This document shows, one piece after another, positions 35,418 through 51,915 of a stretch of 64,000 nucleotides of DNA (position 1 is the first letter of the stretch; every line of letters begins with the position of its first letter). Both the position numbers and the translations under genes were made by a program. Source of the stretch: Herbaspirillum sp. RTI4 (GTDB lineage Bacteria; Pseudomonadota; Gammaproteobacteria; Burkholderiales; Burkholderiaceae_D). Below the pieces are notes generated by a model. The model was not told the origin of the DNA. It saw only the letters and a program-made list of their open reading frames with translations, and did not search any database. The DNA is taken from positions 2,604,001 through 2,668,000 of the forward strand of contig NZ_JAVIWQ010000002.1 in assembly GCF_034313965.1 (NCBI RefSeq), given 5' to 3'.

Positions 35418-36377
35418 TTACTGTGAAACTGCCAGCATTGCCCGCAGTTGCTCCCGCGTCGGCAAGCCATCGCAGTCCCCGGGAAACTGCACCACCCGCG
35501 CGCCGATAACATTGCCGCGCGCAACTGCCTCCGGCAAACGCAATCCCTCCAGCAAGCCGCTAATCACGCCGACAGCAAAACCATCGCCTGCGCCGACTGT
35601 GTCCACCACTTTCTTTACAGGAATACCCGGTACGATGCCGCGCCCATCCTGATCGGCGAAATAAGCGCCCTCCGCGCCGAGTTTGATGACTACCTGTTTC
35701 GCCCCGCCCTCAAGATAAAAATCGGCAATGGCTTCCATGCTGTCGAGTCCAGTCAATAGCTGCCCTTCGGACAAGCCCGGCATAACCAGATCGGCGCTGG
35801 CTGCCAGCCGGTTCATGGTTGCAGCCATGACTTGCGGCGAAGGCCACAGACGCGGCCGCAGATTGGGGTCGAACGATACGCTACGTCCGGCCAGACGCGC
35901 CTGCGCCGCCATCTCGAACACCAGCTCGCACAAACTGGCCGATACGCCGGGACTGATACCGGTCAGGTGCAAATGGCGGGAAGCGGTGCAGTAGGCCTGT
36001 GGATAATCGGCCAGATTCAAATGACTGGCGGCCGAACCACGGCGAAAGTATTCGATGGCGGGATCTTTGCCGTCGGTTTCCAGCGTTTTCAGCATGAAAC
36101 CGGTCGGGTGTTGCTGATCGGTCTGCACATGGCGGCGGTCGATGCCTTCGGCGTCAAGGAAGGCCAGCAGATGCTGTCCGAAGCTGTCGTTACCGACCCG
36201 ACTGACATAGCCCACGCTCAAGCCTAAACGGCGCAGACCGACGGCAACATTGAGCTCGGCACCGGCGGTGGCGCGATGGAAATGCGTCGCTTGCGCCAGC
36301 CCGCCGGCTTGTCCGGCGATAAACAAGGCCATGGCCTCGCCCACAGTCACGACATCGAGCAAGGGGAGCGGACTCAC
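35418..36377 (-). CDS. kdgK: 2-dehydro-3-deoxygluconokinase (PfkB family)
   Basis: A 319-residue ribokinase-fold sugar kinase. The GEAMALFI start, GAELNVAVGLRRLG, and the C-terminal VDTVGAGDGFAVG motif with the catalytic aspartate are present. It phosphorylates 2-keto-3-deoxygluconate to KDPG. The GTG at 36377 overlaps the stop of the dehydratase (GTGA), so the two are coupled; a longer GTG start would overlap further without similarity. It is the last gene of the minus-strand hexonate operon; the KDPG aldolase is not in the window. Confidence 0.87.
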   Translation of the reverse strand: MSPLPLLDVVTVGEAMALFIAGQAGGLAQATHFHRATAGAELNVAVGLRRLGLSVGYVSRVGNDSFGQHLLAFLDAEGIDRRHVQTDQQHPTGFMLKTLETDGKDPAIEYFRRGSAASHLNLADYPQAYCTASRHLHLTGISPGVSASLCELVFEMAAQARLAGRSVSFDPNLRPRLWPSPQVMAATMNRLAASADLVMPGLSEGQLLTGLDSMEAIADFYLEGGAKQVVIKLGAEGAYFADQDGRGIVPGIPVKKVVDTVGAGDGFAVGVISGLLEGLRLPEAVARGNVIGARVVQFPGDCDGLPTREQLRAMLAVSQ

Positions 36378-37903
36378 ATTACCGCCCCGACCTGCCACGG
36401 CAGAAATTCATTGTCGCCCAATCCGTGTTCTTCACTCTTGCTGTACTGGCCGGACGCGGTCGCCAGAATCAATTCGAACAACTGCCGCCCGGCATCGGCA
36501 ATGCTGAGTTCGCCGTCCACGATGCCACCGCAGTCGAAATCCATATCCATGCGCATGTGCCGGAATAAGGCCGAATTGGTCGCCAGCTTGAGCGACGGCG
36601 TGGGCTTGCAGCCATAAGTGGAACCACGACCGGTGGTAAAGCAAATCACATTGGCCCCACCCGCGACCTGACCGGTGGCGGACACCGGATCGTAACCGGG
36701 CGTATCCATGAATACGAGGCCATGCGTACTGACCGGGCAGGCATATTCGACCACGTCCATCAAACCGGTACTGCCCGCCTTGGCAACCGCGCCCAGCGAT
36801 TTTTCCAGAATGGTGGTGATGCCGCCGGCCTTATTGCCCGGCGAGGGATTGTTGTTCATGTCGCCGCCATTGATGCGGGTGTAGTGTTCCCACCAGCTCA
36901 AGCGCTGCATCAGTTTGTCGGCCACGGCTGGCGTAGCGGCGCGTGCGGTCAACAGATGTTCTGCGCCATAAATCTCGGGCGTTTCGGACAGGATGGCAGT
37001 GCCGCCGTGACGCACCACCAGGTCCACTGCCGCGCCCAGAGCCGGATTGGCGCTGATGCCGGAGTAGCCGTCCGAGCCGCCGCATTGCAGACCCACCACC
37101 AGATGGCTGGCGCTCACGGTGCTGCGCACAGCGCGATTGGCAAGCGGCAGCATGTCACGCAGGATGGCAACGCCGGCATCAATGGTTTCGCGCGTGCCGC
37201 CTTCGCCCTGAATCGTCAGTGACGCAAACAAGCCCGGCTCGCGCATGCCCAGCATTTCTACCAGCGGTGCAATCTGATTGACTTCGCAACCAAGTCCGAC
37301 CAGCAAGACGCCGGCGAAATTAGGATGATCGGCGTAGCCGCGCAAGGTCCGTTGCAACAGCGCTATGCCCTCGCCGCCGCCCGACATGCCGCAACCGGTA
37401 CCGTGCGTGATGGCGACGATGCCATCGACGTGCGGGAATTCGCTCAACACTTGCTCGTTAATCAGTTTGGCAATATGGCGGCACACGGTGGCCGAACAAT
37501 TGACGCTGGAAATGACCCCCAGATAATTGCGCGTGCCGACCCGGCCATCCGCCCGCACGATGCCTTGAAACGTGGCACCGGGCTGCGTCAGCGTTACCGG
37601 TTGATAGGCACTGCCCACGCCGTGTGTAGCCGCCGACGGTACCATTCCCAGGTTGTGTACGTGGACATGCTCACCGGGCAGAATACCTTGCGTCGCCACC
37701 CCGATGATCTGGCCGTACTTGAGTACCGGCTTACCGATCTCCACCGCCTCCATCGCCAGCTTGTGGCCAGCGGGAATGGCGTCGCGCAGTACCAGCGGCT
37801 TGGCATTGATGGTCACGGTCTGTCCGGCGCTCAGCGCGATACGGGCAACGGCCACGTTATCGGACTCGCTCAGACGGATCAGCAGTTTGTTTTCAGTTGG
37901 CAT
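36374..37903 (-). CDS. uxaA: Altronate dehydratase UxaA
   Basis: A 509-residue, full-length UxaA/GarD-family dehydratase with both the N-terminal SAF domain (about 1-95) and the catalytic part. THGTGCGMSGGGE near 170-182, GLQCGGSDGYSGISANPALG near 285-305 and TTGRGSTYGCKPTPSLKLAT near 425-444 mark the active site. It dehydrates D-altronate to 2-keto-3-deoxygluconate. AAGGA upstream fits the ATG at 37903. It follows uxaB by about 55 bp. Confidence 0.9.
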   Translation of the reverse strand: MPTENKLLIRLSESDNVAVARIALSAGQTVTINAKPLVLRDAIPAGHKLAMEAVEIGKPVLKYGQIIGVATQGILPGEHVHVHNLGMVPSAATHGVGSAYQPVTLTQPGATFQGIVRADGRVGTRNYLGVISSVNCSATVCRHIAKLINEQVLSEFPHVDGIVAITHGTGCGMSGGGEGIALLQRTLRGYADHPNFAGVLLVGLGCEVNQIAPLVEMLGMREPGLFASLTIQGEGGTRETIDAGVAILRDMLPLANRAVRSTVSASHLVVGLQCGGSDGYSGISANPALGAAVDLVVRHGGTAILSETPEIYGAEHLLTARAATPAVADKLMQRLSWWEHYTRINGGDMNNNPSPGNKAGGITTILEKSLGAVAKAGSTGLMDVVEYACPVSTHGLVFMDTPGYDPVSATGQVAGGANVICFTTGRGSTYGCKPTPSLKLATNSALFRHMRMDMDFDCGGIVDGELSIADAGRQLFELILATASGQYSKSEEHGLGDNEFLPWQVGAVM

Positions 37904-37958
37904 GGTCAACATCCTTGGTAGGGAATTTCTAATGGAGTGGCGAGCGATTTAGCCTTGC

Positions 37959-39119
37959 TTATTGCTGCGCCAGCGCTGCCTGCAAGCGCGGCTGCAACAG
38001 TGCGGGCCGGACTTTTTCAGCCATCGCCACCACCGGGCCTAAACGACGCTGCTTTTTCTGCACATGATTTTGCGCAATATCAGCCAGTCGATGGGCCAGA
38101 TAGGGATTGAGAAAGCGTTCGCGCAAATCGACCAGATAGGCCAGCGCTTGATCGCGCTCGCCCAGCGCCTCGAACACGGGCAGTATTTCCTCGTTCCACA
38201 GCGCTTCCAGATCGGCGCGCAATACGACATCTTGCATGGCCTGCGCCACCGTTTCGTCGGCGGCGCGCTGATCCTGTTGCCAGCGTTCGGCCAGATAGGT
38301 GTGTCCGGCGTTGAGCAGGAAAAGTTTGAGTCGTTCGTGCCGTTCCAGATCATCAGTCAGCACAATGGCAGCGTGACGGCAAGGCAACACCAGACCTTCC
38401 TGCTGTTCGATGGCCCACAGCGCGTAAGGCTCGGCAACGGCGCCCACCGGATACAAGGCTTCGGAAACAATGCGGTCGACCAGTGAATTGGCCCACACGC
38501 AATGCGTGCGCAGCCAGACGATGAAAGCCGCAGGCAAGGCCCATTCGCTGGCCAGGGTGCAGACCAGATCGCGCAAGGTGTCGCCGTTGCGTTCTATCAG
38601 TTCACAAGGAAAAATCGACAGCGGCACAGCGGCCTGGCGCTGCCAGCGGTGTTCCAGCAACACTAATAGTTTGGCGGGAAAGCTGCGCGGAACATCATGC
38701 GCATGGCCGATCAGACCGGCATGGTCTTGCGCATCGAGCTGATAGCCGCGATCCGCGGTGTTCGAGACGATCACCCTCACCTCCCCCGCCATTGCCTCCA
38801 ACAGACGCGGCCAGTGAGTCACCGCCTGAACGGCTTCGCGCACGGCGTTGCAGGTGACGGTGGTGTCAATCTGCTGACCGCGCAACAAACCCCGGATGCG
38901 TACCGGATAACCGGTATCGGCGGCCAGCGCCGCTACCCGTTGCACGTTGGCCGGATTGTCGCTGGACTGCACCACCATGATTCCACCCAGTGCAGCACCG
39001 GCAGCATTATCAGCACCGTTGGCTAGCGCCTCGGAAACGAACAGATCAACGTGGGCCTGCAGAAAACGACTGGTGCCGAACTGGAGAATCGGCTGAATCG
39101 GCTGAATAGGCTGGCTCAT
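37959..39119 (-). CDS. uxaB: Tagaturonate reductase (UxaB-like, mannitol dehydrogenase family)
   Basis: A 386-residue long-chain dehydrogenase. The nucleotide-binding start LQFGTSRFLQAHVDLFVSEA (about 12-31), TADRGYQLD, and the catalytic-helix region LKLFLLNAGHTYLAER are typical. It would reduce D-tagaturonate to D-altronate with NADH; a fructuronate reductase role cannot be fully excluded. The ATG at 39119 gives MSQPIQPIQPILQFG, with a small 9-bp repeat coding the Gln-Pro-Ile units. It starts 7 bp after the dehydrogenase stop. Confidence 0.83.
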   Translation of the reverse strand: MSQPIQPIQPILQFGTSRFLQAHVDLFVSEALANGADNAAGAALGGIMVVQSSDNPANVQRVAALAADTGYPVRIRGLLRGQQIDTTVTCNAVREAVQAVTHWPRLLEAMAGEVRVIVSNTADRGYQLDAQDHAGLIGHAHDVPRSFPAKLLVLLEHRWQRQAAVPLSIFPCELIERNGDTLRDLVCTLASEWALPAAFIVWLRTHCVWANSLVDRIVSEALYPVGAVAEPYALWAIEQQEGLVLPCRHAAIVLTDDLERHERLKLFLLNAGHTYLAERWQQDQRAADETVAQAMQDVVLRADLEALWNEEILPVFEALGERDQALAYLVDLRERFLNPYLAHRLADIAQNHVQKKQRRLGPVVAMAEKVRPALLQPRLQAALAQQ

Positions 39120-39126
39120 GATGGAC

Positions 39127-40137
39127 TTAGCACTCGATGATGGCCTTGACCACGCCTTGTGCGGGATCAAGCAGTTTTTGGAAATCGGCCGGCACATCGG
39201 CCAGATTCAAGCGATGCGTATTGAGCGCGGCGTCGGGAATCTGTCCGGCGCGCATGGCCTTGAGCACGGTCTCGAAATCTTCGACGGTGGCGTTACGGCT
39301 GCCCAGCAAGGTGGTTTCGCGCTTATGGAATTCAGGATCGGAAAAGCTGATCGTCGCACCCACCACCGAAATCAGGACATAAGTGCCGCCATGCGCGACG
39401 AATTTGAAGCCGCGCTCCATTGCCTTGGGATTGCCGGTCGCATCGAACACGACGTCGAAATAGTCGTTGTCGGTCAGTGCCGCCAGCTCCTGCTCATCGG
39501 CATCACCGATTTGCACGGCAGCATTCATGGCCAGATGCTGGATGCAAAAATCCAGCCGGTCGCGACGGGTGTCGAGCGCGGTGACAATACCGCCGCGCAG
39601 CTTGGAAAAAATCATGGCAGCCATGCCGATAGGGCCTGCGCCGACCACCAACACCCGCTGCCCGGTCTGCACGTTAGCGCGACGAACCGCGTGCGCGCCG
39701 ATGGCGAGAAACTCCACCATCGCGGCCTGATCCAGCGTCACGCCTTCCGCTTTATGGACGAAGGCTTGCGGCACGCTGAGATACTCAGTAAATGCGCCGT
39801 CGCGATGTACGCCCAGCACCTGAATATGGGAACAGCAATTCGTCTTGCCCTTGCGGCAGGCCACGCAGACACCGCAGGTCAGATAAGGCATGACGTAGAC
39901 CGTGTCGCCAGCGCTCAGAGGCGATCCCTCGGGTGCCTGTTCAACAATGCCGGACAGCTCATGACCCATGACGCGCGGGTAGCTGAGATAAGGCTGATTA
40001 CCGGTAAAAATGTGCAGATCGGTGCCACACACGCCGACGCGCTTGACGCGCAACAGCACTTCGCCCTCGCCGCGTGGCGGTATCGGACGTTGCTCGGCAC
40101 GCAAAATGCCCGGCGTTTCGCAAATGACTGTCAACAT
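39127..40137 (-). CDS. Zinc-dependent dehydrogenase, L-galactonate 5-dehydrogenase-like
   Basis: A 336-residue medium-chain dehydrogenase. Catalytic zinc site: Cys37 and Asp40 region in GVCGTDLHIF and His59 in MGHELSG. Structural zinc site: CGVCVACRKGKTNCC near 88-102. Rossmann motif VVGAGPIGMAAM near 164-175. It resembles LgoD/YjjN, which oxidises L-galactonate to D-tagaturonate, exactly the substrate of the next gene product. Other hexonates such as L-gulonate remain possible. AAGGAG precedes the ATG. Confidence 0.8.
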   Translation of the reverse strand: MLTVICETPGILRAEQRPIPPRGEGEVLLRVKRVGVCGTDLHIFTGNQPYLSYPRVMGHELSGIVEQAPEGSPLSAGDTVYVMPYLTCGVCVACRKGKTNCCSHIQVLGVHRDGAFTEYLSVPQAFVHKAEGVTLDQAAMVEFLAIGAHAVRRANVQTGQRVLVVGAGPIGMAAMIFSKLRGGIVTALDTRRDRLDFCIQHLAMNAAVQIGDADEQELAALTDNDYFDVVFDATGNPKAMERGFKFVAHGGTYVLISVVGATISFSDPEFHKRETTLLGSRNATVEDFETVLKAMRAGQIPDAALNTHRLNLADVPADFQKLLDPAQGVVKAIIEC

Positions 40138-40176
40138 GCATGACTCCTTGAATTCGTTAGTAGGTTTTTAGAAACG

Positions 40177-40246
40177 GCTGATGAAGCACTTACGCCATCC
40201 TGCGTATGGGATTCGTTGCGTGTGATGCGTGCCACACTTCATCAGC
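40177..40246 (-). promoter_or_regulatory. Long-range inverted repeat between binding protein and dehydrogenase genes
   Basis: GCTGATGAAG at 40177-40186 and CTTCATCAGC at 40237-40246 are perfect complements flanking 50 bp. The pair fills the 123-bp gap after the binding-protein stop. Such structures often protect the binding-protein message and set its excess over downstream genes; that role is inferred. Confidence 0.5.
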
Positions 40247-40260
40247 GTTGGTTCCTCACA

Positions 40261-41037
40261 TCAGCCGTGGAAACGCTTGAAAATTTTGACCAGATTGCCG
40301 TTCTCGTTGTTCTTGGCGACCCAGGCGTTGATCCACTCCTGCAGCTTGGTTTCGCCCTTACGCATGCCGACTCCCAGCGGGAAGCTTTGCATCACGAATT
40401 TGATTTCTATGCCGAGTGCGGGGGCTTTTCCGATCACCGTGTTAACGATAGAAGGCGAAGTGGCGAAAATATCGACCTGGCCGCTGGCAATTGCCGTGAC
40501 CAGGGTGGCGTCATCATCGAAGCGGACAATTTGCGCGCCTTTGGCACCGTCGGTAGCGAGCCGGTCGTTGGTGGTGCCGCGTGCAGTGGCAACGCGTTTT
40601 CCGGCCAGATCAGCAAAGCTCTTGATGGCAATGGGCTTAGGTCCGGCGACCACGGCCTGAATCTGCGCATACGGCGCGGAAAAATTAATAACCTTTTCAC
40701 GTTCCGGCGTGACCGACAGGGAAGAAATCACGATGTCGGCTTTGCCGGTTTGCAGAAACGGAATGCGATTGGCGCCCGTGGTTTGTACAATTTCCAGTTC
40801 CACGCCCAGATCCTTGGCCAGCAAACGGGCAGTCTCGACATCAGAACCGGTTGGCTTCATTGCGCCATCGGTGGTACCGAACGGCGGTGAGCCGAGGTCG
40901 ATAGCGACGCGGATTTTCTTGGCGGCACGGACGTCATCGAGCTGGTCGGCGTGGGCGACGGTCGCCGCGCCGGCGAACGACATCAGGACAACTGCCGACA
41001 GAAGGCGGCGTGCAAATGGGGAACGCTTGATCATCAT
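40261..41037 (-). CDS. ABC transporter periplasmic binding protein (family 3)
   Basis: A 258-residue solute-binding protein with a signal peptide (cleavage probably after GAATVAHA, about residue 30). IRVAIDLGSPPFGTTDGAMK and GSDVETARLLAKDLGVELE are typical of the polar amino-acid family 3 type. In ordinary amino-acid binders an Arg-Asp pair binds the zwitterion; the context of hexonate enzymes instead suggests an acidic sugar ligand. AAGGAG precedes the ATG. It belongs to the operon with permeases and ATPase upstream. Confidence 0.88.
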   Translation of the reverse strand: MMIKRSPFARRLLSAVVLMSFAGAATVAHADQLDDVRAAKKIRVAIDLGSPPFGTTDGAMKPTGSDVETARLLAKDLGVELEIVQTTGANRIPFLQTGKADIVISSLSVTPEREKVINFSAPYAQIQAVVAGPKPIAIKSFADLAGKRVATARGTTNDRLATDGAKGAQIVRFDDDATLVTAIASGQVDIFATSPSIVNTVIGKAPALGIEIKFVMQSFPLGVGMRKGETKLQEWINAWVAKNNENGNLVKIFKRFHG

Positions 41038-41060
41038 TTCATCTCCTTGGTTTTATGGAT

Positions 41061-41121
41061 GGCACTGCTTTGATGGCAATGCTTTAGCTGCAACGCCTTA
41101 GCTGCAATGCTTTCACTGCCC
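41061..41121 (-). repeat. Imperfect 15-bp tandem repeats between ATPase and binding-protein genes
   Basis: GGCAATGCTTTAGCT and variants occur about four times (GGCACTGCTTTGAT, GGCAATGCTTTAGCT, GCAACGCCTTAGCT, GCAATGCTTTCACT) in the 129-bp gap. Origin by slippage is likely. Confidence 0.65.
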
Positions 41122-41166
41122 TACTGAAAAACATACCTCACCGCTCACTGCGCGGCCTTGCTGAAA

Positions 41167-41895
41167 TTAAAGTCCGCTGCCGACAAAATTGCGCAGCTCG
41201 GCGGTTTGCGGCGCATCGAGCATCGAGCCCGGGCCTTGCTCCCATACCTTGCCGCCATGCATGAAAATCACTTCGTCAGCGACCTTGCGGGCAAATGCCA
41301 TTTCATGCGTGACGAGGATCATGGTCATGCCATCGGCGGCCAGTTTTTCCATCACGCGCAGCACTTCGCCGGTTAATTCCGGATCGAGCGCGGAAGTCAC
41401 TTCATCAAACAGCATGACCTTCGGCGCCATCGCCAGCGAACGGGCAATCGCCACGCGTTGCTGCTGGCCACCGGACAACTGCGACGGATAAGCATCGGCT
41501 TTGTCGGCCAGACCGACCTGCGTCAAGACCTTGTGGGCGCGTTCGCGCAGTTCGGCACGTTTGCCCTTGAGTACCAGGCGTGGCGCGAGCATGATGTTTT
41601 GCTCGACGGTCATGTGCGGAAACAGGTTATAGCTTTGAAAAACGATGCCGACGTCGCGGCGTAGTTGGTGCAAGTCCAGTTGTGGCGAGGTGACTTCATG
41701 TCCGCAAACTTCGATGCGGCCGCTGTCGACCGATTCCAGCCGGTCGATGCAGCGCAAGGCTGTGCTTTTGCCGGAACCGCTGCGGCCGATGATGGCGACT
41801 ACCGAGCCTTTTTTAACGTCGAAGGACACGCCATCCAGTACACGGACCGGGCCGAAGCTCTTCGAGATGGACTCGACCTTAACGATTTGCGACAT
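41167..41895 (-). CDS. ABC transporter ATP-binding protein (polar amino-acid type)
   Basis: A 242-residue ATPase with Walker A GRSGSGKST (about 36-44), Q-loop FQSYNLFPH, signature LSGGQQQRVAIARSLA (about 137-152), Walker B VMLFDEVTSALDPE and switch His in VTHEMAFA. It powers the importer formed with the two permeases and the binding protein. The ATG at 41895 lies within the upstream permease gene (17-bp overlap). Confidence 0.93.
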   Translation of the reverse strand: MSQIVKVESISKSFGPVRVLDGVSFDVKKGSVVAIIGRSGSGKSTALRCIDRLESVDSGRIEVCGHEVTSPQLDLHQLRRDVGIVFQSYNLFPHMTVEQNIMLAPRLVLKGKRAELRERAHKVLTQVGLADKADAYPSQLSGGQQQRVAIARSLAMAPKVMLFDEVTSALDPELTGEVLRVMEKLAADGMTMILVTHEMAFARKVADEVIFMHGGKVWEQGPGSMLDAPQTAELRNFVGSGL

Positions 41896-42529
41896 TGAAT
41901 TTCCTTTCGAGGCGGCGGCTCCAGACCGACAGCGGGTAGCACAGGGCAAAATACAAAACAGCGGTCAGCATGAAAATCAGGAACGGCTGGAAGGTAGCGT
42001 TGTTAATCACCTGCCCGGCGCGCGCCAGCTCAATGAATCCTATGGCTGAAGCCAGCGAGGTGTTCTTGACGATCTGCACCATGAAGCCCACGGTGGATGG
42101 GGTGGCGATCTTGAGCGCTTGCGGCAGGATCACATGGATCAGCCGCTGTCCCCAGTTAAGCGCCAGACATTCGGCGGCTTCGGCTTGAGTGCGCGGTACC
42201 GATTCGATGCAGCCGCGCCAGATTTCGCCCAGATAGGCCGATGAGTAAATGCTCAGACCGATAGCGGCGGCAGTCAGCGGTTCGATGTTGAGGCCCAGCG
42301 TCGGCAAGCCGAAGTAGGTCAGCGACAGCAATACCAGTAGCGGCGTGCCTTGCACCAGTTTGATATAGAGCATGGTCAGGTTGCGCGTGAAAGCGGGTCC
42401 GTAGACGCGCAGTATCGCGACGATGAAACCGAGCACGCCGCCGCCGACGAAGGCGATCAGCGACAGTCCCACGGTCCAGCAGAAACCCTGAAGCAGGAAT
42501 TGCAATTGCGGTACGGTCAGTAAAGTCAT
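41879..42529 (-). CDS. ABC transporter permease (HisM/GlnP type) 2
   Basis: A 216-residue inner-membrane permease with about five helices and the EAA loop EAAECLALNWGQRLIHVILPQ near 137-157. YIKLVQGTPLLVLLSLTYFGLP is the polar amino-acid permease signature. It pairs with the next permease upstream to form a heterodimeric channel. Starts 10 bp after the first permease. Confidence 0.92.
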   Translation of the reverse strand: MTLLTVPQLQFLLQGFCWTVGLSLIAFVGGGVLGFIVAILRVYGPAFTRNLTMLYIKLVQGTPLLVLLSLTYFGLPTLGLNIEPLTAAAIGLSIYSSAYLGEIWRGCIESVPRTQAEAAECLALNWGQRLIHVILPQALKIATPSTVGFMVQIVKNTSLASAIGFIELARAGQVINNATFQPFLIFMLTAVLYFALCYPLSVWSRRLERKFNVANR

Positions 42530-42539
42530 GGCGGCCCCT

Positions 42540-43223
42540 TCAGATCGGCTGGCCGAGACGGCGGCGGCGCGGGAAGGCGAGGTAACTGGCGCACCAGAAC
42601 ATCAGCCGCATGATGAGCGACAGCACCAGATAGGCTGCGGCGACGATCAGATAAGTTTCGACCGAGCGGAAAGTATCCGACTGAATGCGGTTGGCAACGG
42701 CGGTCAGTTCTTCCGCTGAAATCTGCGAAGTGATCGACGAGGCCAGCATCAGCAAAACGTATTGGCTGGTCAGCGCCGGGTAGACCCGCTCGATAGCCGG
42801 CGGCAGCACTACATGCAGCATCACTTGCCAGCGCGACAGACCCAGACATTCGGCGGCTTCCAGTTGCCCGCCATGAATGGATTGAATACCGGCGCGCACA
42901 ATTTCCGAGGTATAGGCACCGACGTTGATAATCAGTGCGGCCGTGGCAGCGGTAAAGGCGTCCACCTTGATGCCGACTGTGGCGAGTCCGAAATAGACGA
43001 TGAACACTTGCACCAGCAAGGGGGTATTGCGGATGCTCTCGACATAAATCCCGCAGAATCGGGACAGCCAGACTGAACGGCCGGAACGCCCCAGTGCGCA
43101 AAATACGCCGAGCAAAAAGCCGAACACGGTCGCCGCTACCGACAAACCCAGCGTGGTCGCCGCACCCGCCAGAAAATCCGGCCAGTACGCCAGAGGCGCG
43201 CTGAAATCGAAGTCATACCGCAT
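42540..43223 (-). CDS. ABC transporter permease (HisM/GlnP type) 1
   Basis: A 227-residue permease with about five helices, the signature YVESIRNTPLLVQVFIVYFG and the EAA loop EAAECLGLSRWQVMLHVVLPP. It is the first gene of the eight-gene hexonate run. The divergent region upstream carries three GGCCTGACCA boxes, so the operon is probably controlled by the adjacent FadR-type regulator. Confidence 0.92.
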   Translation of the reverse strand: MRYDFDFSAPLAYWPDFLAGAATTLGLSVAATVFGFLLGVFCALGRSGRSVWLSRFCGIYVESIRNTPLLVQVFIVYFGLATVGIKVDAFTAATAALIINVGAYTSEIVRAGIQSIHGGQLEAAECLGLSRWQVMLHVVLPPAIERVYPALTSQYVLLMLASSITSQISAEELTAVANRIQSDTFRSVETYLIVAAAYLVLSLIMRLMFWCASYLAFPRRRRLGQPI

Positions 43224-43281
43224 AGTTGGTCTCCCGGTTGGTCAAAACAGCCGGGTAAGGCCGCTTTGCCGTTTATTTTAA

Positions 43282-43294
43282 TTGGCCTGACCAA
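43282..43294. promoter_or_regulatory. Operator box 1 of the hexonate module
   Basis: TTGGCCTGACCAA, an imperfect palindrome sharing the decamer GGCCTGACCA with two further boxes. It lies 59 bp before the permease start. Confidence 0.7.
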
Positions 43295-43368
43295 GAATAC
43301 CTTAAAATTGCGTATTAACACTATTTATTCAGCAAAAATTCTTTTATTTAGCCTAAACTAAGGGCTTC

Positions 43369-43378
43369 GGCCTGACCA
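43369..43378. promoter_or_regulatory. Operator box 2 of the hexonate module
   Basis: GGCCTGACCA, second copy. With box 3 it forms a 33-bp inverted repeat just before the regulator gene. Confidence 0.7.
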
Positions 43379-43391
43379 ATTTCGATTACTC

Positions 43392-43401
43392 TGGTCAGGC
43401 C
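43392..43401. promoter_or_regulatory. Operator box 3 of the hexonate module
   Basis: TGGTCAGGCC, the inverse of boxes 1 and 2, 39 bp before the regulator ATG. Autoregulation is likely. Confidence 0.7.
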
Positions 43402-43439
43402 AATACTGCTGTAATGTACCGAATTGAAGGAAAAACCTC

Positions 43440-44150
43440 ATGCTGGATCAAATCAAACCGGTGGATACCCGCCGCCTGTATCAACAAATCGCCGATCGGA
43501 TACGCGCACTTATCCTGGAGGGCAATTTCCCCGCCGGTGCGCGTTTGCCGCCGGAACGCGACCTGGCGCAGCAATTGGGAGTATCGCGACCATCTGTGCG
43601 GGAAGCGCTGATTGCTCTGGAGCTGCAAGGCAGCGTAGAAGTCCGAATGGGCGCGGGGGTGTATGTGTGCAATCCCACCGAACGCACGCCACAAACGACG
43701 GCGGCGATGGGCGAGAGTCCGATTGAGTTGATGCAGGCGCGCTCGGCGCTGGAAGGAACGGTGGTAATGCTGGCTTGCGCGCGCATTACCCCGGAGGGGC
43801 TGCTGTCGCTGCGTCGGGTGCTGGAGGAAATGCGTTCGGCGATTACACAAAATCGCCCCACCCTTCCCTACGACAGAGAATTCCACTTGCTGATCGCTGC
43901 GAGTACCGGCAATTCGGTGCTGGAGCGGCTGGTGCGCGAGCTATTCGATGAGCGCCACAGTCCGATTTCGTCGCAATTACGGGAGCGCACAGAAACCAGT
44001 CAGACATGGGACGCTGCGCTGGAGGAACATGAGGCGATTCTGGTGGCGCTGGAAAGCCGGGATGTGCTCAACGCACAAACAGCCTTGCGCTCGCATCTCA
44101 ATGGATCGCTGAATCGCTGGGTGGAAAGCAATCGGCAGGAGTGGTCTTGA
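43440..44150 (+). CDS. FadR-subfamily GntR regulator of the hexonate module
   Basis: A 236-residue regulator. Winged HTH (about 10-75) with LPPERDLAQQLGVSRPSVRE and the wing GAGVYVCNP, then an all-helical FCD ligand domain with metal-binding residues in REFHLLIAASTGNS and EEHEAILVAL. The FCD domain usually senses a carboxylate, here probably a hexonate intermediate. Divergent from the ABC and catabolic operon, with three matching operator boxes between them. Confidence 0.9.
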   Translation: MLDQIKPVDTRRLYQQIADRIRALILEGNFPAGARLPPERDLAQQLGVSRPSVREALIALELQGSVEVRMGAGVYVCNPTERTPQTTAAMGESPIELMQARSALEGTVVMLACARITPEGLLSLRRVLEEMRSAITQNRPTLPYDREFHLLIAASTGNSVLERLVRELFDERHSPISSQLRERTETSQTWDAALEEHEAILVALESRDVLNAQTALRSHLNGSLNRWVESNRQEWS

Positions 44151-44200: not shown

Positions 44201-45799
44201 TCAGGTCACCGGTGCCGGATTGAACAGGGTCAGTGCATTGTGCAGCTTCCAATGCTCGGCCCAGGTTTTTTTGCCGCTGGCGACGTCGAGCAGCATCTGG
44301 AACATTTCCCAGCCGACATCGCTGATACTGGCTTCGCCGGTGGCGATGCGCCCGGCGTTGATATCCATCAAATCATGCCAGCGACGCGCCAGATCGGAGC
44401 GCGTGGCGACTTTCAGGACCGGTACCGCGGCCAGTCCGTACGGCGTGCCGCGACCTGTCGTGAATACGTGCAGATTCATGCCAGCCGCCAGTTGCAGCGT
44501 GCCGCAGATAAAATCGCTGGCGGGCGTGGCTGCGTAAATCAGGCCCTTGCGCTTGAGTTTTTCTCCCGGTGCCAGCACACCGGAAATCACGCCGTTGCCG
44601 GACTTGACGATGGAACCCATCGCCTTTTCAGTGATGTTCGATAAGCCACCTTTTTTGTTGCCGGGAGTGGTATTGGCGCTGCGGTCGACGCCGCCTTTGC
44701 TCAGGTAAGCGTCATACCAGGCCATTTCACGAATCATTTCCTTGGCGACTTCGGCGTTCAGGGCGCGCGAAGTGAGCTGGTCAATACCGTCGCGGACTTC
44801 AGTCGTTTCAGAAAACATGACGGTAGCGCCGGCCCGGATCAGCAGCTCAGTCGCAAAACCGACCGCCGGATTGGCCGTCACTCCCGAGAAGGCATCGCTG
44901 CCGCCGCACTGCACGCCGACCACCAGTTCCGATGCCGGGCAAGTTTCGCGCTGGCGCAGATTGAGGGCGGCCAGTCGGATTTTTGCCATGTCCATGATCG
45001 AGGTGATCATCGATTCAAAGCCGACATGCTGTTCGTCCTGCAAGACAACGATGTAAGGCCCGTTCTGAATCGGGATACTGCCGGCCGGTAGCAGGCGCGC
45101 CGGTTGCAGTTTTTCGCAACCGAGGCTGACCAGCATGGCTTGCCCGCCGAAATTCGGATTGAGACTGATGTTGCGCAGCGTGCGAATGGGGATGATGGCA
45201 TCCGGCGCGTCGATCGCGACGCCACATCCATAGGTGTGTTCCAGTCCGATGACGTCATCGACATTCGGATAATCGGCCAGCAGTTCCGCTTTGATGCGCT
45301 TGACGGCATGTTCGACCACGCCGGAGACGCACTGCACCGTGGTCGTAATGGCCAGAATATTGCGTGTGCCGACGGAGCCATCCGCATTTTTGAATCCCTG
45401 GAAGGTATAGCCTTCCAGCGGCTCTACCGGCGCGAAGTGGCGATTGGCAATCGGCAAGTTGACCAGTTCCCGCGCGGGCGCCATGCGCACCAGCGATTCT
45501 TCGACCCAGCTGCCCTGCGCAATATCGCGTACGGCATAGCCGATGGTGACGTCGTAGCGGGTAATGGCGGCACCTTCGGCTAAATCGACCAGGGCAATTT
45601 TGTGTCCCTGGGGGATACGGTCGAGCAGGACGAATTCCCCAGGGAATTCGGTTCCGGCAGGCAATCCGCCATCGTTGACGACAATGGCGACATTGTCGTT
45701 GGCATGCATGCGGATATACAGGGGCGCTGTACCTGCGGCTTGCGCGACAGTCGAAACCGGCGTTGTTCCCTTGCTCGATGTTTCCATTGTATTTTCCAT
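44201..45799 (-). CDS. garD: Galactarate dehydratase GarD
   Basis: A 532-residue UxaA/GarD-family protein, close to the usual 523. The N-terminal SAF part has [20 protein letters not shown], and the catalytic part has [33 protein letters not shown] and [20 protein letters not shown]. The [14 protein letters not shown] start separates GarD from the altronate enzymes. It dehydrates galactarate to 5-dehydro-4-deoxyglucarate. The start may be 45799 or the next ATG 12 bp later, because a repeat duplicates MENT. The divergent region carries the regulon box at 45998-46012. Confidence 0.9.
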
Positions 45800-45845: not shown

Positions 45846-45997
45846 GCTCGATCTTCATCGACATTCATAAACATTCATAGACAAGGGCCCCATGGTTTTA
45901 TCTGACTGCGCTCTTATTTGTTTTATTATTGTGAGCAATACAGTACAAAAAAGCTGTGGCGGATATCATATGAACGCATTTCACCTAACCTCATATG

Positions 45998-46012
45998 TCA
46001 TCGTACAACATG
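45998..46012. promoter_or_regulatory. Galactarate regulon box, garD/regulator divergent region
   Basis: TCATCGTACAACATG, the exact reverse complement of CATGTTGTACGATGA found at two other promoters. It lies between garD and the FadR-type regulator. A TCATATG pair at 45966 and 45991 flanks it. Confidence 0.82.
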
Positions 46013-46080
46013 CTCCGAGTATAATCAGAATATGAAAACTCTGCAATCCATCTCTCATTGCGCTACTTATCCCACCACTC

Positions 46081-46863
46081 ATGTCTGAAAATCACACCTC
46101 AACCGCCTCCACGCCCTCTGCCCCGCGCAAGAAACACCGCAATCTGGCTCAGGGCGTCGTCGCGGATATTTCAGAGCAAATCCAGAATGAGATCCTGAAG
46201 CCGGGAGACAAATTGCCGACCGAATCCGAAATCATGCGGATTCAGGGCGTCAGCCGCACCGTGGTGCGCGAAGCCATTTCCCACATGCAGGCCGCCAAAC
46301 TGGTGGAAACCCGGCATGGCATCGGTACCTTTGTGCTGGAACCACCACCAGCGCAAGCCTTTGGCATCGATCCCGATACGGTCATCACCATGCGCGATGT
46401 GCTGGCGATTCTGGAGTTGCGCATCAGTCTGGAAACCGAAGCCGCTTATCTGGCCGCAAGCCGACGCAACGAACAGCAACTGCAAGAACTGCGCGCGGCT
46501 CTCGATGCATTACTGAACCATACCCCCGAGGACGGAGATGCCATCTCGCCCGATGTCCATTTTCATCTGCTCATCGCGCAGACGTCCGGCAATCGTTATT
46601 TCTACGACATCCTGCACCAGCTCGGCACCAACATTATTCCGCGCTCGCGCATTAACGCCGCCAAGATGACGCATGACGATCCTGCGGCCTATCTGGAGCG
46701 CGTCAATCACGAGCATGAAGATATTTTCAACGCCATCCTGCGCGAAGATCCTGAAGCAGCACGCGCCGCGATGCGTACCCACCTGAGCAATAGCCGCGAG
46801 CGTTTGCGACGGATTCAGGAATCGAACGAAATCAAGTCTTCGTCAGACAACACGCGCCAGTAA
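46081..46863 (+). CDS. FadR-subfamily GntR regulator of the galactarate module
   Basis: A 260-residue regulator with an N-terminal winged HTH (about 22-92; LPTESEIMRIQGVSRTVVRE and HGIGTFVLEPP) and a helical FCD domain (about 105-245) with the metal-binding DVHFHLLIAQTSGN and HEHEDIFNAI motifs. Similar regulators bind sugar acids such as galactarate or glucarate. Matching 15-bp boxes upstream of garD, the semialdehyde dehydrogenase and kdgD imply that this protein controls all of them. Confidence 0.88.
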   Translation: MSENHTSTASTPSAPRKKHRNLAQGVVADISEQIQNEILKPGDKLPTESEIMRIQGVSRTVVREAISHMQAAKLVETRHGIGTFVLEPPPAQAFGIDPDTVITMRDVLAILELRISLETEAAYLAASRRNEQQLQELRAALDALLNHTPEDGDAISPDVHFHLLIAQTSGNRYFYDILHQLGTNIIPRSRINAAKMTHDDPAAYLERVNHEHEDIFNAILREDPEAARAAMRTHLSNSRERLRRIQESNEIKSSSDNTRQ

Positions 46864-46901
46864 GGTCAATCCGGCTGCGCCAGGCTTGCACATTCACAAG
46901 T

Positions 46902-46916
46902 CATGTTGTACGATGA
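46902..46916. promoter_or_regulatory. Galactarate regulon box before the aldehyde dehydrogenase
   Basis: CATGTTGTACGATGA, identical to the copy before kdgD. It lies about 216 bp before the TTG start of the dehydrogenase and 39 bp after the regulator stop, so the dehydrogenase has its own controlled promoter. Confidence 0.85.
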
Positions 46917-47131
46917 CCGGTGATGTCGTCAGCGCTGCGTGTTGGCCGTACTAACCAGGTGAATATCCCATTCCTTCGATAGTGCGCCCCTCTCCGGTCG
47001 ACTGACATCACGCCCAGGCATCCGGCGCCTCTGACCGGAAGCCGCCCCCATTTTCGATGCGCCACAAGCTCTCCTCCCGTTGCAAGACGGCAGGTCTTGC
47101 TGCTGCTTCAATCAACCTTCTGGAGAACCTA

Positions 47132-48727
47132 TTGACCACGCCAACTCACGCCACTATCACCGGTGCCATGCTGATCGGAAAAACTGCCCACTTTGGTACT
47201 GAACGCCAGTTGCACGCCATCGACCCTTCCAGCGGCTTGCCTATCGAACCGCCATTCGGCACCGGCACCACAGCCGATACCGATACCGCCTGCACATTGG
47301 CCCAGCAAGCATTCGACAGCTATCGTGAAACGACGCTGGAACAGCGCGCCCAGTTTTTGGAGCAGATCGCCACTAACATCCTGGAAATCGGCCACGCCCT
47401 GATCGAGCGCGCCATGCAGGAATCCGGTTTGCCGCAAGCTCGCCTCGAAGGCGAACGCGGCCGCACCGTCGGTCAGCTGCGTCTGTTTGCCAAAGTCGTG
47501 CGCGACGGCCGTTTTCTCGACGCCACGCTGGATTCGGCACTGCCGGAACGCGCACCGCCACGGCCTGATCTGCGCTTGCGCAAAATCGGTCTGGGCCCGG
47601 TCGCCGTTTTCGGCGCCAGCAATTTTCCTCTGGCGTTTTCAGTCGCCGGCGGCGATACCGCTTCCGCACTGGCCTCAGGTTGCCCGGTAGTGGTCAAGGC
47701 GCACAGCGCCCATCCCGGCACCTCGGAACTGGTCGGTAAAGCCATTCAGGCGGCGGTTGCCACTTGCGGCCTGCATGAAGGCGTGTTTTCCTTGTTGTTC
47801 GGCGACGGCAACATCGTTGGTCAAACGCTGGTCAGCCATCCCTCCATCAAGGCAGTCGGATTCACTGGTTCGCGTCAAGGCGGCGTAGCACTGATGCGCG
47901 CAGCGGCGCAACGCAAGGAACCCATCCCGGTCTATGCCGAAATGAGCAGCATCAACCCGATGTTCCTGCTGCCGGATGCAATGGCCAACGGCGCACGCAA
48001 AATCGGCGCGGCCTTCATCGATTCCCTGACCATGGGCGCAGGACAGTTCTGTACCAACCCGGGTCTGGTGATTGCAATGGAAGGTGGCGATCTGACAGCA
48101 TTCAGCGAAGCGGCCGGCGAAGCGCTGCAAGCCAAAGTGGCGGCAACCATGCTGACTCCGGGCATCCATGCTGCTTACACCAAGGGCGTAGAGCAACTGG
48201 CGGCCACTGCCGGTGTGCGTCTGCTGGCACGCGGCCAGGTCGCCACCGGCCCCTGCGGCGGTCAGGCAACTTTATTCATTACGGACGCGGCCACATTCCT
48301 GGCCACGCCTTCGTTGGAAGATGAAGTGTTCGGTGCTTGCTCGCTGATCGTCAGTTGCAACAACATCGCGCAATTCCGGCAAGTGGCGGAACATGTGGCG
48401 GGTCAGTTGACTGCCACCTTGTTCCTGACCGCTGCCGACCATGCCGCCGCCAAGCAGTTGCTGCCGGCGCTGGAACGCAAAGTGGGCCGCATTCTGGTTA
48501 ACGGTTTCCCGACGGGCGTCGAAGTGTCCCACGCAATGGTGCATGGCGGCCCGTTCCCGGCAACATCGGACAGCCGCAGCACATCGGTCGGCGCTGCCGC
48601 GATTGATCGTTTCCTGCGTCCGGTCAGCTATCAGGATATTCCGGCAGATTTGTTGCCGGCATCGCTGCAGGATGGCAATCCGCTGGGATTGTGGCGCGTC
48701 ATTAATGGCGATCTGGTTCAGGCTTGA
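47132..48727 (+). CDS. 2,5-dioxovalerate (alpha-ketoglutarate semialdehyde) dehydrogenase
   Basis: A 531-residue aldehyde dehydrogenase of the KGSADH type. NAD(P)-binding region [20 protein letters not shown], catalytic Glu270 in YAEMSSINP and nucleophile Cys307 in [11 protein letters not shown] are present. It oxidises alpha-ketoglutarate semialdehyde to 2-oxoglutarate, the last step of galactarate degradation. TTG at 47132 is preferred: GGAG sits 6 nt upstream and the resulting length matches the family; an ATG at 47057 lacks similarity. Confidence 0.92.
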
Positions 48728-48780
48728 TCGTCGTGTTTGATCCCCGGGACTTGGCGTCCCGGATTTTGACCGCGCAATAG

Positions 48781-48818
48781 AAAAACGGGAGCCGATCATA
48801 CGGTTCCCGTTTTTTTTT
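48781..48818. terminator. Bidirectional terminator
   Basis: AAACGGGAGCCG, loop ATCATA, CGGTTCCCGTTT with one mismatch, flanked by A-runs and nine T residues. It serves the plus-strand dehydrogenase and the convergent chemoreceptor gene. Confidence 0.9.
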
Positions 48819-48863
48819 ATGACGCTTGAGATTGTGGCGTCCGAATACTGCAACGCCATCCGC

Positions 48864-50483
48864 TCAGTGAGGTAATAGGCTGTGCGGCGTGTGGATATCT
48901 TTCATGGCAACGCGACGAGGCTGTGCCAAGTCGCCGTCGAGCTTGAAGACCTGCACCAGTTCGATCAGGGTATTGGCCTGATCCTGAAGCAATTTCGCTG
49001 TTCCGGCTGATTTCTCGACCAATACCGCATTGCGTTGCGTGACACTGTCCATCTCGATCACTGCGGAATTGACCTGCTCGATGCCCGAGGTTTGCTCACG
49101 CGAAGCGGCGGCGATTTCCAACACGGTGTCTGTCACCTTCTTGATGCCCGCCACGATGTCGTCCATCGTGTCCCCTGCCTTGTGTACCAACTGGGTACCG
49201 GTGGAAACCTTATCAACGGAATCGTCTATCAGCGATTTGATTTCCTTGGCCGCCGTTGCCGATCGCTGCGCCAGACTGCGTACTTCCGACGCCACCACCG
49301 CAAAACCACGACCTTGCTCACCGGCACGCGCTGCTTCGACAGCGGCGTTCAGCGCCAGAATATTCGTCTGAAAGGCAATGCTGTCGATGACCCCGATGAT
49401 GTCGACGATTTTTTTCGAAGAGGCGCTGATTGCCTCCATCGTCAGCACCACATCTGAAACGACCGTGCCGCCCTGGGAGGCCACGGTCGAGGCCGCTGCC
49501 GCAAATTCGCTGGCGTTTTGCGCATGCTGCGCGTTATTTTTTACCGTGCTGGTCAGCTCTTCCATTGATGCGGCGGTCTGCTCAAGCGCACTGGCTTGCG
49601 ATTCGGTGCGCGAAGACAGGTCGATGTTGCTGGTCGCGATTTCCGTCGCTGCCACATGGATTTCCTGCGCGCCTTTGCGCACTTGCGATACGGTGTCAAT
49701 CAGGCCCTGTTGCATGCGCTGCATGGCGCTGTACAGACGGCCTATCTCGTTATTTCCAGTCTGGGCGATATGAGTGCTCAGATCGCCCAGGGCGACCTGA
49801 TCCAGCAGCAATACGGCATGGCTCAAGGGGGTCAGGACAATTCTTTTCAGGCCGAAATGCGTCAGCAGAATCAGACCCAGCGCGAGCAGCAGGCCCACTG
49901 ACACCAGTTCCTTGACCAGCGTGTATTCAAATTCCTTGCGATTGGTCTGTTCGCTTGTCAGCGCATTCACGTGCGCCTGGAATTTTTCCATGTTGGCAGA
50001 GTACAGGCTGCCGGTGGCGGTAACCGGACCATCGTTAAGGACGCTGAATGCGGCCGTATCGTCCGCACGCAGGGCTTCAATGGCTTTTGCGAGAGCCAGC
50101 GACATGGCTTGTCCCGATGTCACTACATTTTGCTTGAGGGTATTGTCCAGTCCTTCAAACGCTGGCTCATCAGCGAATGCCTGCAGTCCGGCGTTGTAAC
50201 GGTCAAGAAAAGGCAGGCTGCGCTTGACTGAAAAATCCTTGGCGGCGATATCGTTTTTTTCTTTTAGCGATGCGTAGGCAGACAACAACACAACCCGGGT
50301 GCGCATCGCATTTTTGTAACTCTCGGTGATCTGAGAGGATTGCGCGCTTATCTGTCGCAGTAACAATGCTGAATCATTTGCCCTTCCCAGGGCCAGCACG
50401 CCGGCGGCTGCGCCGAATACCAGCATGATGGCGAAAGAAATAAGTACGGCGATCAAACTGGTTCTGATGGTGACGTTTTTCAT
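48864..50483 (-). CDS. Methyl-accepting chemotaxis protein with four-helix-bundle sensor
   Basis: A 539-residue chemoreceptor. Membrane helix about 10-32, periplasmic helical TarH/4HB-like domain about 35-190, second helix about 192-212, HAMP about 215-268, then a signalling domain with [20 protein letters not shown] near 380. The ligand is not readable from sequence. It sits between two genes of the galactarate module, which suggests taxis to sugar acids, but it does not carry a visible regulon box itself. Confidence 0.92.
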
Positions 50484-50634
50484 TTTTGTCTTTTGTATTT
50501 ATTAATTCCTATCATTATATATTGATGAAATACAACATTCCCTATTTCAACGTCGCGGTCATTCAGAACGGGGACGGCAAGGACTCCTTCGTCAATCAGT
50601 TCGCTTTGCGCTTGCGTCTACCGACAGCATCGGG

Positions 50635-50897
50635 TTGGATGTATTACCAGGTGCCGGTGCCCAGCGGGACAACGCTACATCGCACAACAGGCAGATCGTT
50701 GGGATTTATGCGGCGCTGTCCGGTAAGGTCGACAGAGGCTTGTATCGCTATCGTCATCTGATGAAAACCGTTTTCACACGACTCAAACACTATCCGGCCT
50801 TGGTCACCAGATTTGATCTACTGAAAAAAATGACCAGAGCGTCGTCGCCATTGCACGTGGCTTTCTATGGCGTCTCGGTGAAACGTCAACACGCCCT
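50635..50897 (+). mobile_element. Relic of an IS5-family transposase and its right end
   Basis: In one frame residues such as YRYRHLMKTVFTRLKHYP and then ALVTRFDLLKK resemble the conserved C-terminal Y-(2)R-(3)E-(6)K region of IS5-family transposases (RHLVEN-FARLKHFRAIATRYDK), with the catalytic Glu replaced. No intact upstream part exists. AAACGTCAACACGCCCT at 50881-50897 matches, inverted, the IS5-like end at 25610-25626 in 15 of 17 positions. The relic lies directly upstream of the kdgD promoter. Confidence 0.6.
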
Positions 50898-50919
50898 GCT
50901 CCCTTGCAAATTTTCAATT

Positions 50920-50934
50920 CATGTTGTACGATGA
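50920..50934. promoter_or_regulatory. Galactarate regulon box before kdgD
   Basis: CATGTTGTACGATGA, third copy, 70 bp before the kdgD ATG and 23 bp after the IS relic end. Confidence 0.85.
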
Positions 50935-51003
50935 CTGACTTCAAGTGAGCGAAATGCATGTGACGCCCACTTTTATTCACCCTTTCTATCGGCCAGGCAC
51001 ACC

Positions 51004-51915
51004 ATGAACGCTCAAGAACTCAAAAAAACCCTCTCCTCCGGCTTACTCTCCTTTCCTGTCACCGACTTCGATGCCGAAGGTAATTTCCGCCCAAGCACCT
51101 ACGCTGATCGCCTCGAATGGCTGGCACCGTACGGCGCGACGGCCTTGTTCGTCGCTGGTGGCACGGGTGAGTTTTTCTCGCTGACTCCGGCCGATTACAG
51201 CAACGTCGTTAAAGTGGCTGTCGATACCTGCCGCGGCAAAGTGCCTATCCTGGCCGGTGCCGGTGGCCCTACCCGTGTGGCGATCGCTTACGCGCAGGAA
51301 GCCGAACGTCTGGGTGTTCAGGGTATCTTGCTGATGCCGCATTACCTCACGGAAGCCAGCCAGGACGGACTGGTCGCCCATGTGGAAGAAGTCTGCAAAT
51401 CGATCAAAATCGGCGTGGTGATTTATAACCGCAACGTCTGCAAACTCAATGCTGAATCCTTGCTGAAGCTGGCAGATCGCTGCCCTAACCTGATCGGCTT
51501 CAAAGATGGCGTGGGCGATATCGAATCGATGGTTACCATCCGTCGTCGTCTTGGCGATCGTTTTTCTTATCTGGGTGGCTTGCCAACTGCTGAAATTTTC
51601 GCCGCTCCATACAAGGCGATGGGCGTGCCGGTCTATTCGTCGGCGGTGTTCAACTTCATCCCGAAAACAGCAATCGAGTTCTACGAAGCCATCAAGAATG
51701 ATGATTTTGCGACTTCCGAACGCCTGATCGACACCTTCTTCCTGCCTTACCTGGAAATCCGCAACAAGAAGGCTGGCTATGCCGTCAGCATCGTCAAGGC
51801 AGGGGCAACGATCATTGGGCATGATGCAGGTCCGGTCCGCGCACCGTTGGTCGACCTGAATGAAGAAGAGCGTGAACAACTGAAGGCGTTGATTGTGGCG
51901 CAAGGTCCTCAGTAA
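51004..51915 (+). CDS. kdgD: 5-dehydro-4-deoxyglucarate dehydratase KdgD
   Basis: A 303-residue DapA-superfamily TIM barrel. [11 protein letters not shown] (about 51-61), catalytic Tyr141 in [11 protein letters not shown] and Schiff-base Lys167 in [10 protein letters not shown] are present. It decarboxylates and dehydrates 5-dehydro-4-deoxyglucarate to alpha-ketoglutarate semialdehyde, joining GarD and the semialdehyde dehydrogenase. Single transcript with its own regulon box. Confidence 0.95.

Follow-up and report, generated by a model that had tools for sequence, protein, structure and literature searches.

What recognizes a 15-bp word that recurs exactly in front of the genes for galactarate catabolism? 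We analyzed 64,000 nucleotides of Herbaspirillum sp. RTI4 (contig NZ_JAVIWQ010000002.1, positions 2,604,001 to 2,668,000; hereafter the window), where a scan located the word CATGTTGTACGATGA exactly at 45998–46012 on the minus strand and at 46902–46916 and 50920–50934 on the plus strand. A first-pass annotation of the sequence had reported the same three copies and had placed them before an aldehyde dehydrogenase gene, kdgD and the garD/regulator pair, which the gene coordinates bear out. We propose that the FadR-type regulator encoded at 46081–46863 uses the three boxes as its operators and very probably represses galactarate catabolism. The genes and boxes of the locus are:

44201..45799, minus strand: garD, galactarate dehydratase (TIGR03248, 901 bits, cut-off 731; PF04295 and PF20629)
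45998..46012, minus strand: box between garD (start 45799, minus strand) and the regulator gene (start 46081, plus strand)
46081..46863, plus strand: FadR-type regulator (GntR helix-turn-helix and FCD domains), the proposed cognate repressor (PF00392, 66.9 bits; PF07729, 89.2 bits)
46902..46916, plus strand: box after the regulator stop (46863) and before the aldehyde dehydrogenase gene
47057..48727, plus strand: aldehyde dehydrogenase, presumed 2-oxoglutarate semialdehyde dehydrogenase (PF00171)
50920..50934, plus strand: box 84 bp upstream of kdgD (51004)
51004..51915, plus strand: kdgD, 5-dehydro-4-deoxyglucarate dehydratase (decarboxylating) (TIGR03249, 441 bits, cut-off 374)

All three copies are followed by C, giving a common 16-mer, and the only 15-mers with at least three copies in the window are CATGTTGTACGATGA and the overlapping one-base shift ATGTTGTACGATGAC. 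When the window was shuffled with its dinucleotide content kept, a 15-mer with at least three copies arose in only 1 of 200 shuffles, in keeping with the earlier argument that a triple chance match is implausible; that argument overstated the independence of the sites, as the kdgD and dehydrogenase copies are probably parts of one duplicated block. A search of the whole genome (3,986,208 bases) for further copies, proposed in the same annotation, returned three exact matches, none with one mismatch and eight with two. Since the reversed control pattern gave six matches at up to two mismatches, weaker copies are not clearly in excess; the 13-base core of the element described below gave 61 genome matches at up to two mismatches against 90 for the control. 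The further copy anticipated before a transporter gene did not appear: the genome holds no additional exact or one-mismatch copy, and no match of at least 11 of 13 positions lies in the 12 kb around the best of 34 TIGR00893 matches, the one such region covered.

The repeated word is real; it is nevertheless not the whole operator, and part of it is the likely −10 hexamer at two promoters. The element is 20 bp long, GTTGTACGATGAC-nn-AYAAC, that is, GTTGT-nnn-AYRAC-nn-AYAAC, with GTTGTACGATGAC as its 13-base core, and contains three half-sites: GTTGT in forward orientation (columns 1–5), AYRAC in reverse (columns 9–13), and a weaker third, AYAAC, also in reverse (columns 16–20). To judge by its sequence, the pair at positions 1–5 and 9–13, 3 bp apart, is a FadR-type inverted pair, TTGT-N3-AYRA. 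In a logo of 44 kdgD sites, columns 1–13 and 15–20 are conserved and column 14 is variable, part of the core conservation being due to selection of the sites at a core match of at least 11 of 13. The logo also contains a TTGC block at −18 to −15, separated from the element by variable sequence; TTG[CT] stands exactly at this position in 34 of the 44 sites, and the seven genus mates and three others differ. The best dyad centre of the kdgD sites is 10.5 (56% complementary; next centre, 42%). All three sites here read TTGT-ACG-ATGA against the FadR form TKGT-N3-ACMA, and relatives have ATGA, ACGA, ACAA and others at the second half-site. Two simpler models were rejected: a plain 15-bp recognition site, as conservation at kdgD sites reaches column 20, and a perfect 20-bp palindrome as the sole model, as the TTGT-N3-AYRA pair fits the FadR subfamily better. 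The third half-site is therefore treated as additional. The three operators are:

45990..46009, minus strand: operator 1 (garD/regulator divergon), GTTGTACGATGACATATGAG; exact box, matrix score 27.5, rank 1
46905..46924, plus strand: operator 2 (aldehyde dehydrogenase), GTTGTACGATGACCGGTGAT; exact box, matrix score 15.3, rank 3
50923..50942, plus strand: operator 3 (kdgD), GTTGTACGATGACTGACTTC; exact box, matrix score 26.8, rank 2

These ranks are among all window positions and come from a scoring matrix built solely from the kdgD sites of relatives, with this genome excluded; the next-best position scores 2.1. The 43 relatives' own kdgD sites, which are favoured because the matrix was built from them, score 25.4 to 36.7. 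Operator 1 holds 12 bases of the box at 45998–46012, and the third half-site of operator 2 is degenerate.

The association of the element with the regulator was evaluated in 145 genomes of the family, with a match at E ≤1e-50 defining a regulator-positive genome. The regulator is present in 47 genomes, KdgD over its cut-off in 47 and GarD over its cut-off in 44. The strict pattern DWGTTGTACGAYRAC occurs in 45 genomes, namely 39 of the 47 with the regulator and 6 of the 98 without it (Fisher p 5e-21, uncorrected for kinship). All 50 kdgD genes over the cut-off were inspected over 450 bp upstream: 44 of the 46 in regulator-positive genomes (our own included) carry the core GTTGTACGATGAC at 11 or more of 13 positions, 56–133 bp upstream and always on the coding strand, whereas none of the four in regulator-negative genomes has the element (best scores, 8–9 of 13). 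Second kdgD copies at L167 (genome G083) and L162 (G143) also have it upstream, at 13 and 12 of 13. Among 29 regulator loci of relatives (L033–L061), kdgD adjoins the regulator gene with the element between them in 21, and in 13 of those a homologue of the dehydrogenase is visible next in the short locus. Beyond the family, a search of 300 genomes of the order added 24 regulator loci outside the family (within L232–L259, the other four being family members). The best matrix score per locus, computed with a slightly different background from that of the window and family scoring and with no shuffled control, is at least 24 in 13 of the 24 and 13–20 in four more (L243, L249, L251 and L257). Three loci with regulator homologues at 54–55% identity (L027, L028 and L030) keep an element of the garD type described below, and no kdgD was found in them.

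The FadR-type protein at 46081, predicted by the first-pass annotation to bind the boxes, is thus supported by its GntR and FCD domains, both over cut-off, by its co-occurrence with the box and by the box-like elements that flank homologous genes in other families. His162, His212 and His234 have a conservation of 1.0 in an alignment of 58 sequences, its own included; we take them to be the conserved FCD histidines of a putative metal or effector pocket. None of 25 matches to named FadR equivalogs (LldR, NanR, ExuR, PdhR, UxuR and GlcC) exceeded the cut-off, the best being LldR with 111 bits against 311.

Where does the element lie relative to the promoters? We assigned the following by sequence and spacing:

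46018..46046, minus strand: likely garD promoter; −35 TTGCAG (46046–46041), 17-bp spacer, −10 TATACT (46023–46018)
46020..46025, plus strand: candidate −10 TATAAT of the regulator gene, with a weak −35; overlaps the garD promoter, with operator 1 just upstream
46886..46914, plus strand: likely dehydrogenase promoter; −35 TTGCAC (46886–46891), 17 bp, −10 TACGAT (46909–46914) inside the box
50904..50932, plus strand: likely kdgD promoter; −35 TTGCAA (50904–50909), 17 bp, −10 TACGAT (50927–50932) inside the box

Two classes can be distinguished. The kdgD and dehydrogenase promoters share the form TTGCA(A/C)-N17-TACGAT, in which the −10 hexamer coincides with columns 5–10 of the element, and the TTGC/TACGAT geometry of the dehydrogenase promoter is that found at kdgD in relatives. 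At garD, operator 1 instead starts 8 bp downstream of TATACT, near the expected transcription start. A search requiring only TATACT and the box core returned 26 distinct places of this second class (our own included), with a gap of 9 bp in 18, 8 bp in three, 10 bp in three, 7 bp in one and 13 bp in one; TTGC lies exactly at −35 in 23 of the 26. The sites, this conserved promoter-like geometry and the association with the regulator and the pathway genes are direct results of the computation.

From them we infer promoter activity, binding, repression, effector and oligomeric state as follows. The regulator would repress the galactarate catabolism genes and probably also its own expression. At kdgD and the dehydrogenase the element would be fused with the promoter, bases 5–10 serving as the −10 TACGAT at 17 bp from the TTGC −35, and at the garD/regulator divergon it would begin just past the garD −10 TATACT. 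A dimer bound at either position would block RNA polymerase sterically, until galactarate or a downstream dicarboxylate, e.g. 5-keto-4-deoxyglucarate, binds the FCD domain and causes release. As the element overlaps or closely follows the −10, both positions fit a repressor.

The sign of regulation is not readable from sequence, and some FCD regulators activate. Activation by this regulator is nonetheless improbable, given that the elements overlap or closely follow the likely −10 hexamers, where a bound dimer would block the polymerase; the GntR-type repressor NanR works from downstream of the polymerase site (PMC8012715). That another regulator binds the box, such as the second FadR-type protein encoded 2 kb away at 43440–44150 or one encoded elsewhere, is a very unlikely alternative: the boxes of relatives adjoin homologues of the 46081 regulator, the box tracks this homologue in the family and lies next to it in several further families of the order, and where the 43440 protein has a match in relatives' loci, the best one is itself the 46081 homologue, at approximately 30% identity.

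The position of TACGAT inside the box, 17 bp from TTGC at both kdgD and the dehydrogenase, could also mean that the box is chiefly part of the promoter, a −10 region common to these genes, rather than an operator. Comparison of the two promoter classes makes this highly unlikely. Both garD and relatives' TATACT-type places have a −10 of their own, with the element downstream of it. Among the kdgD-type sites, column 6 is A in 43/43 and column 7 is C in 42/43, whereas in 27 TATACT-type sites column 6 is A in 15 and C in 12, and column 7 is C in 9, G in 7, T in 6 and otherwise another base. The pattern used to collect the TATACT-type sites fixed columns 1–3, 5, 8, 9 and 13, limited columns 4 and 10, and left columns 6, 7, 11, 12 and 14–20 free; of the unfixed columns, 16 and 19 are A in 26/27. 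The −10 constraint is thus separable from the operator, and the simplest reading is that AC at columns 6–7 reflects a promoter constraint and the half-sites reflect the operator. The kdgD genes of the four regulator-negative genomes, which have no element, likewise speak against a promoter element alone.

Several observations weigh against the proposed operators. The core GTTGT-ACG-ATGAC is an imperfect FadR palindrome, with two of five pairs broken. The three promoters are absent from the list of a generic promoter scan (thresholds of 4/6 per hexamer and 9/12 in all), the hexamers being weak relative to the sigma-70 consensus and below these thresholds, and the 4 promoter-like sites that the scan listed in the region are close to the 2.6 expected; we regard this as mild evidence against the promoter assignments, which rest on conserved spacing instead. 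Within the family, no box lies near two regulator-positive kdgD genes (that of G097 and the second copy of G023), the strict pattern occurs in 6 regulator-negative genomes and is missing in 8 regulator-positive ones (one kdgD upstream region in each of these still scores 12–13), and the genomes are related, so that the counts are not independent. Nor does the family generally carry a box immediately before garD: at least 11 of 13 positions match in 4 of 43 garD upstream regions (taken from 46 hits; our own garD, G106 and G003 were left out), and one of the four is the kdgD site. Finally, 7 of the 24 order loci have a weak site (L232 and L246) or nothing above a score of 8 (L236, L245, L250, L258 and L259).

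How did kdgD and the dehydrogenase come to share a box? In this genome, a chemoreceptor gene separates kdgD, which has an element of its own, from the dehydrogenase, a homologue of which follows kdgD in relatives. An alignment of the two promoters spans 57 bp at 77%. For the upstream flank alone, 0 of 5000 shuffles reached the alignment score, and the 15-nt spacers are identical at 11 of 15 positions, whereas neither spacer agrees with that of any relative at more than 10. The two promoters are likely copies of one duplicated block, of which the dehydrogenase copy would have lost the third half-site; this is not certain, because the common TTGC and A/T bias add similarity. No remnant of kdgD was detected in the dehydrogenase leader by tblastn at E ≤5. 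That the three copies are nothing more than a recent, functionless duplication is scarcely credible despite this likeness, which the common TTGC and A/T-rich spacers can inflate: the promoter context of the garD copy is a different one, and conservation of the element extends beyond the genus and the family.

Returning to the proposed operators, we tentatively consider, as a possibility somewhat short of even, that promoter and operator form one portable cassette, in which bases 5–10 would act as the −10 hexamer and at the same time form the core of a FadR-type operator with three half-sites. If so, induction control and promoter strength could not evolve apart, and transfer of the block would place a gene in the regulon at once, as seems to have accompanied the split of the kdgD–dehydrogenase pair here; the dehydrogenase, having lost its third half-site, would then be repressed less strongly.

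The annotation had described a complete route from galactarate to 2-oxoglutarate. GarD and KdgD are over their cut-offs and sustain this, whereas the dehydrogenase is not a curated 2-oxoglutarate (α-ketoglutarate) semialdehyde dehydrogenase (KGSADH), scoring 94 bits against the cut-off of 770 of the KGSADH GucD equivalog NF042993; it is likely the enzyme of the last step, on the basis of genomic context. Its closest solved chains are 3v4c and 1eyy, and its start is perhaps a TTG at 47132, many relatives aligning from about residue 33. At L228, a locus of the same genus, a different dehydrogenase adjoins kdgD, with NF042993 as its best model (528 bits, also below the cut-off). The best glucarate dehydratase match in this genome is partial (25 bits) and none is over the cut-off, and hence the name galactarate regulon holds here.

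Where the pathway differs, the element accompanies it, and the regulon of relatives, as read from site positions, includes glucarate genes and an aldolase branch. At L226 the element precedes a glucarate dehydratase gene (TIGR03247, 852 bits, cut-off 829) as well as genes for a GarL-like aldolase, tartronate semialdehyde reductase and a glycerate-kinase-like protein, and at L229 it precedes the glucarate dehydratase gene gudD. At L225 and L228, the two loci inspected in this respect, it stands before transporter-garD-lactonase-like genes, with garD behind the TIGR00893 transporter gene. From the count of garD upstream regions above, a box right before garD is a trait of some genomes, this one included.

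In Bacillus subtilis, a distant organism, the GntR-type regulator YcbG (gudP/garD region) presumably lies beside homologues of kdgD, the aldehyde dehydrogenase and garD. As a kind of control the element is not new: it is a FadR-type operator with an extra half-site. Suvorova and colleagues give the FadR-subfamily consensus as TKGT/ACMA, typically with 3 nt between GT and AC, and describe in many groups a weaker extra half-site 7–12 nt from the centre (PMC4494728). The element resembles these operators in half-site form, 3-nt gap and divergon placement, and its third half-site, 11 nt from the centre, falls inside that range; it differs in its core, an imperfect palindrome that often reads TTGT-N3-AYGA, in the constant position of the third half-site, and in sharing the −10 hexamer at promoters of one class. 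As in Halomonas, where the GntR-family regulator GguR was predicted for galactarate/glucarate use (PMC5507952), a GntR-family regulator is proposed by comparative genomics for such an operon; unlike the locus here, the Halomonas cluster has a TTT-family transporter. Escherichia coli NanR, with its (GGTATA)3 operator, is similarly a GntR-type repressor acting at a promoter through several adjacent half-sites, although its half-sites are direct repeats (PMC8012715), whereas here one is forward and two are reverse.

No description of the motif was found in the open-access literature as covered by titles and abstract openings. Within the reach of this search, what is new is the motif in betaproteobacteria, the way it is fused with the −10, and the target map. 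Together they provide a testable map of regulator, operators and promoters for the use of galactarate and glucarate (aldarates) in a betaproteobacterial group, with possible use as a predicted biosensor part, and illustrate that one exact repeated word can carry a promoter signal and an operator signal at once, separable by comparing promoter classes.

Between the dehydrogenase and kdgD lies a TarH-type chemoreceptor gene (48864–50483, minus strand), and a galactarate cluster of the same genus (L228:5890–7437) also contains a chemoreceptor gene, whose product is 52% identical; the receptor may sense galactarate or a related acid. The sole box-like word upstream of it is a three-mismatch match at 50677–50691 on the minus strand, within chance. 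Short overlapping open frames at 50486–50934, between the chemoreceptor gene and kdgD, may be gene remnants.

The region 35418–44150 of the window holds an adjacent sugar-acid cluster with KDG-kinase-like and tagaturonate-reductase-like genes, an altronate-dehydratase-like gene (384 bits to TIGR03248, below the cut-off), a PRK10083-like Zn-dehydrogenase gene (PRK10083 being, we take it, LgoD), amino-acid-type ABC transporter genes and the second FadR-type regulator; by its gene content it looks like a cluster for L-galactonate or galacturonate use. A plasmid search returned homologues of the regulator at 46081–46863 with 60–80% identity in 5 records and with less than 60% in 392. The regulator is 75% identical to that of another genus (G070) but 60–62% identical to those of its own genus, and in the genus mate G142 the dehydrogenase next to kdgD belongs to a different family; the galactarate cluster may have been acquired horizontally.

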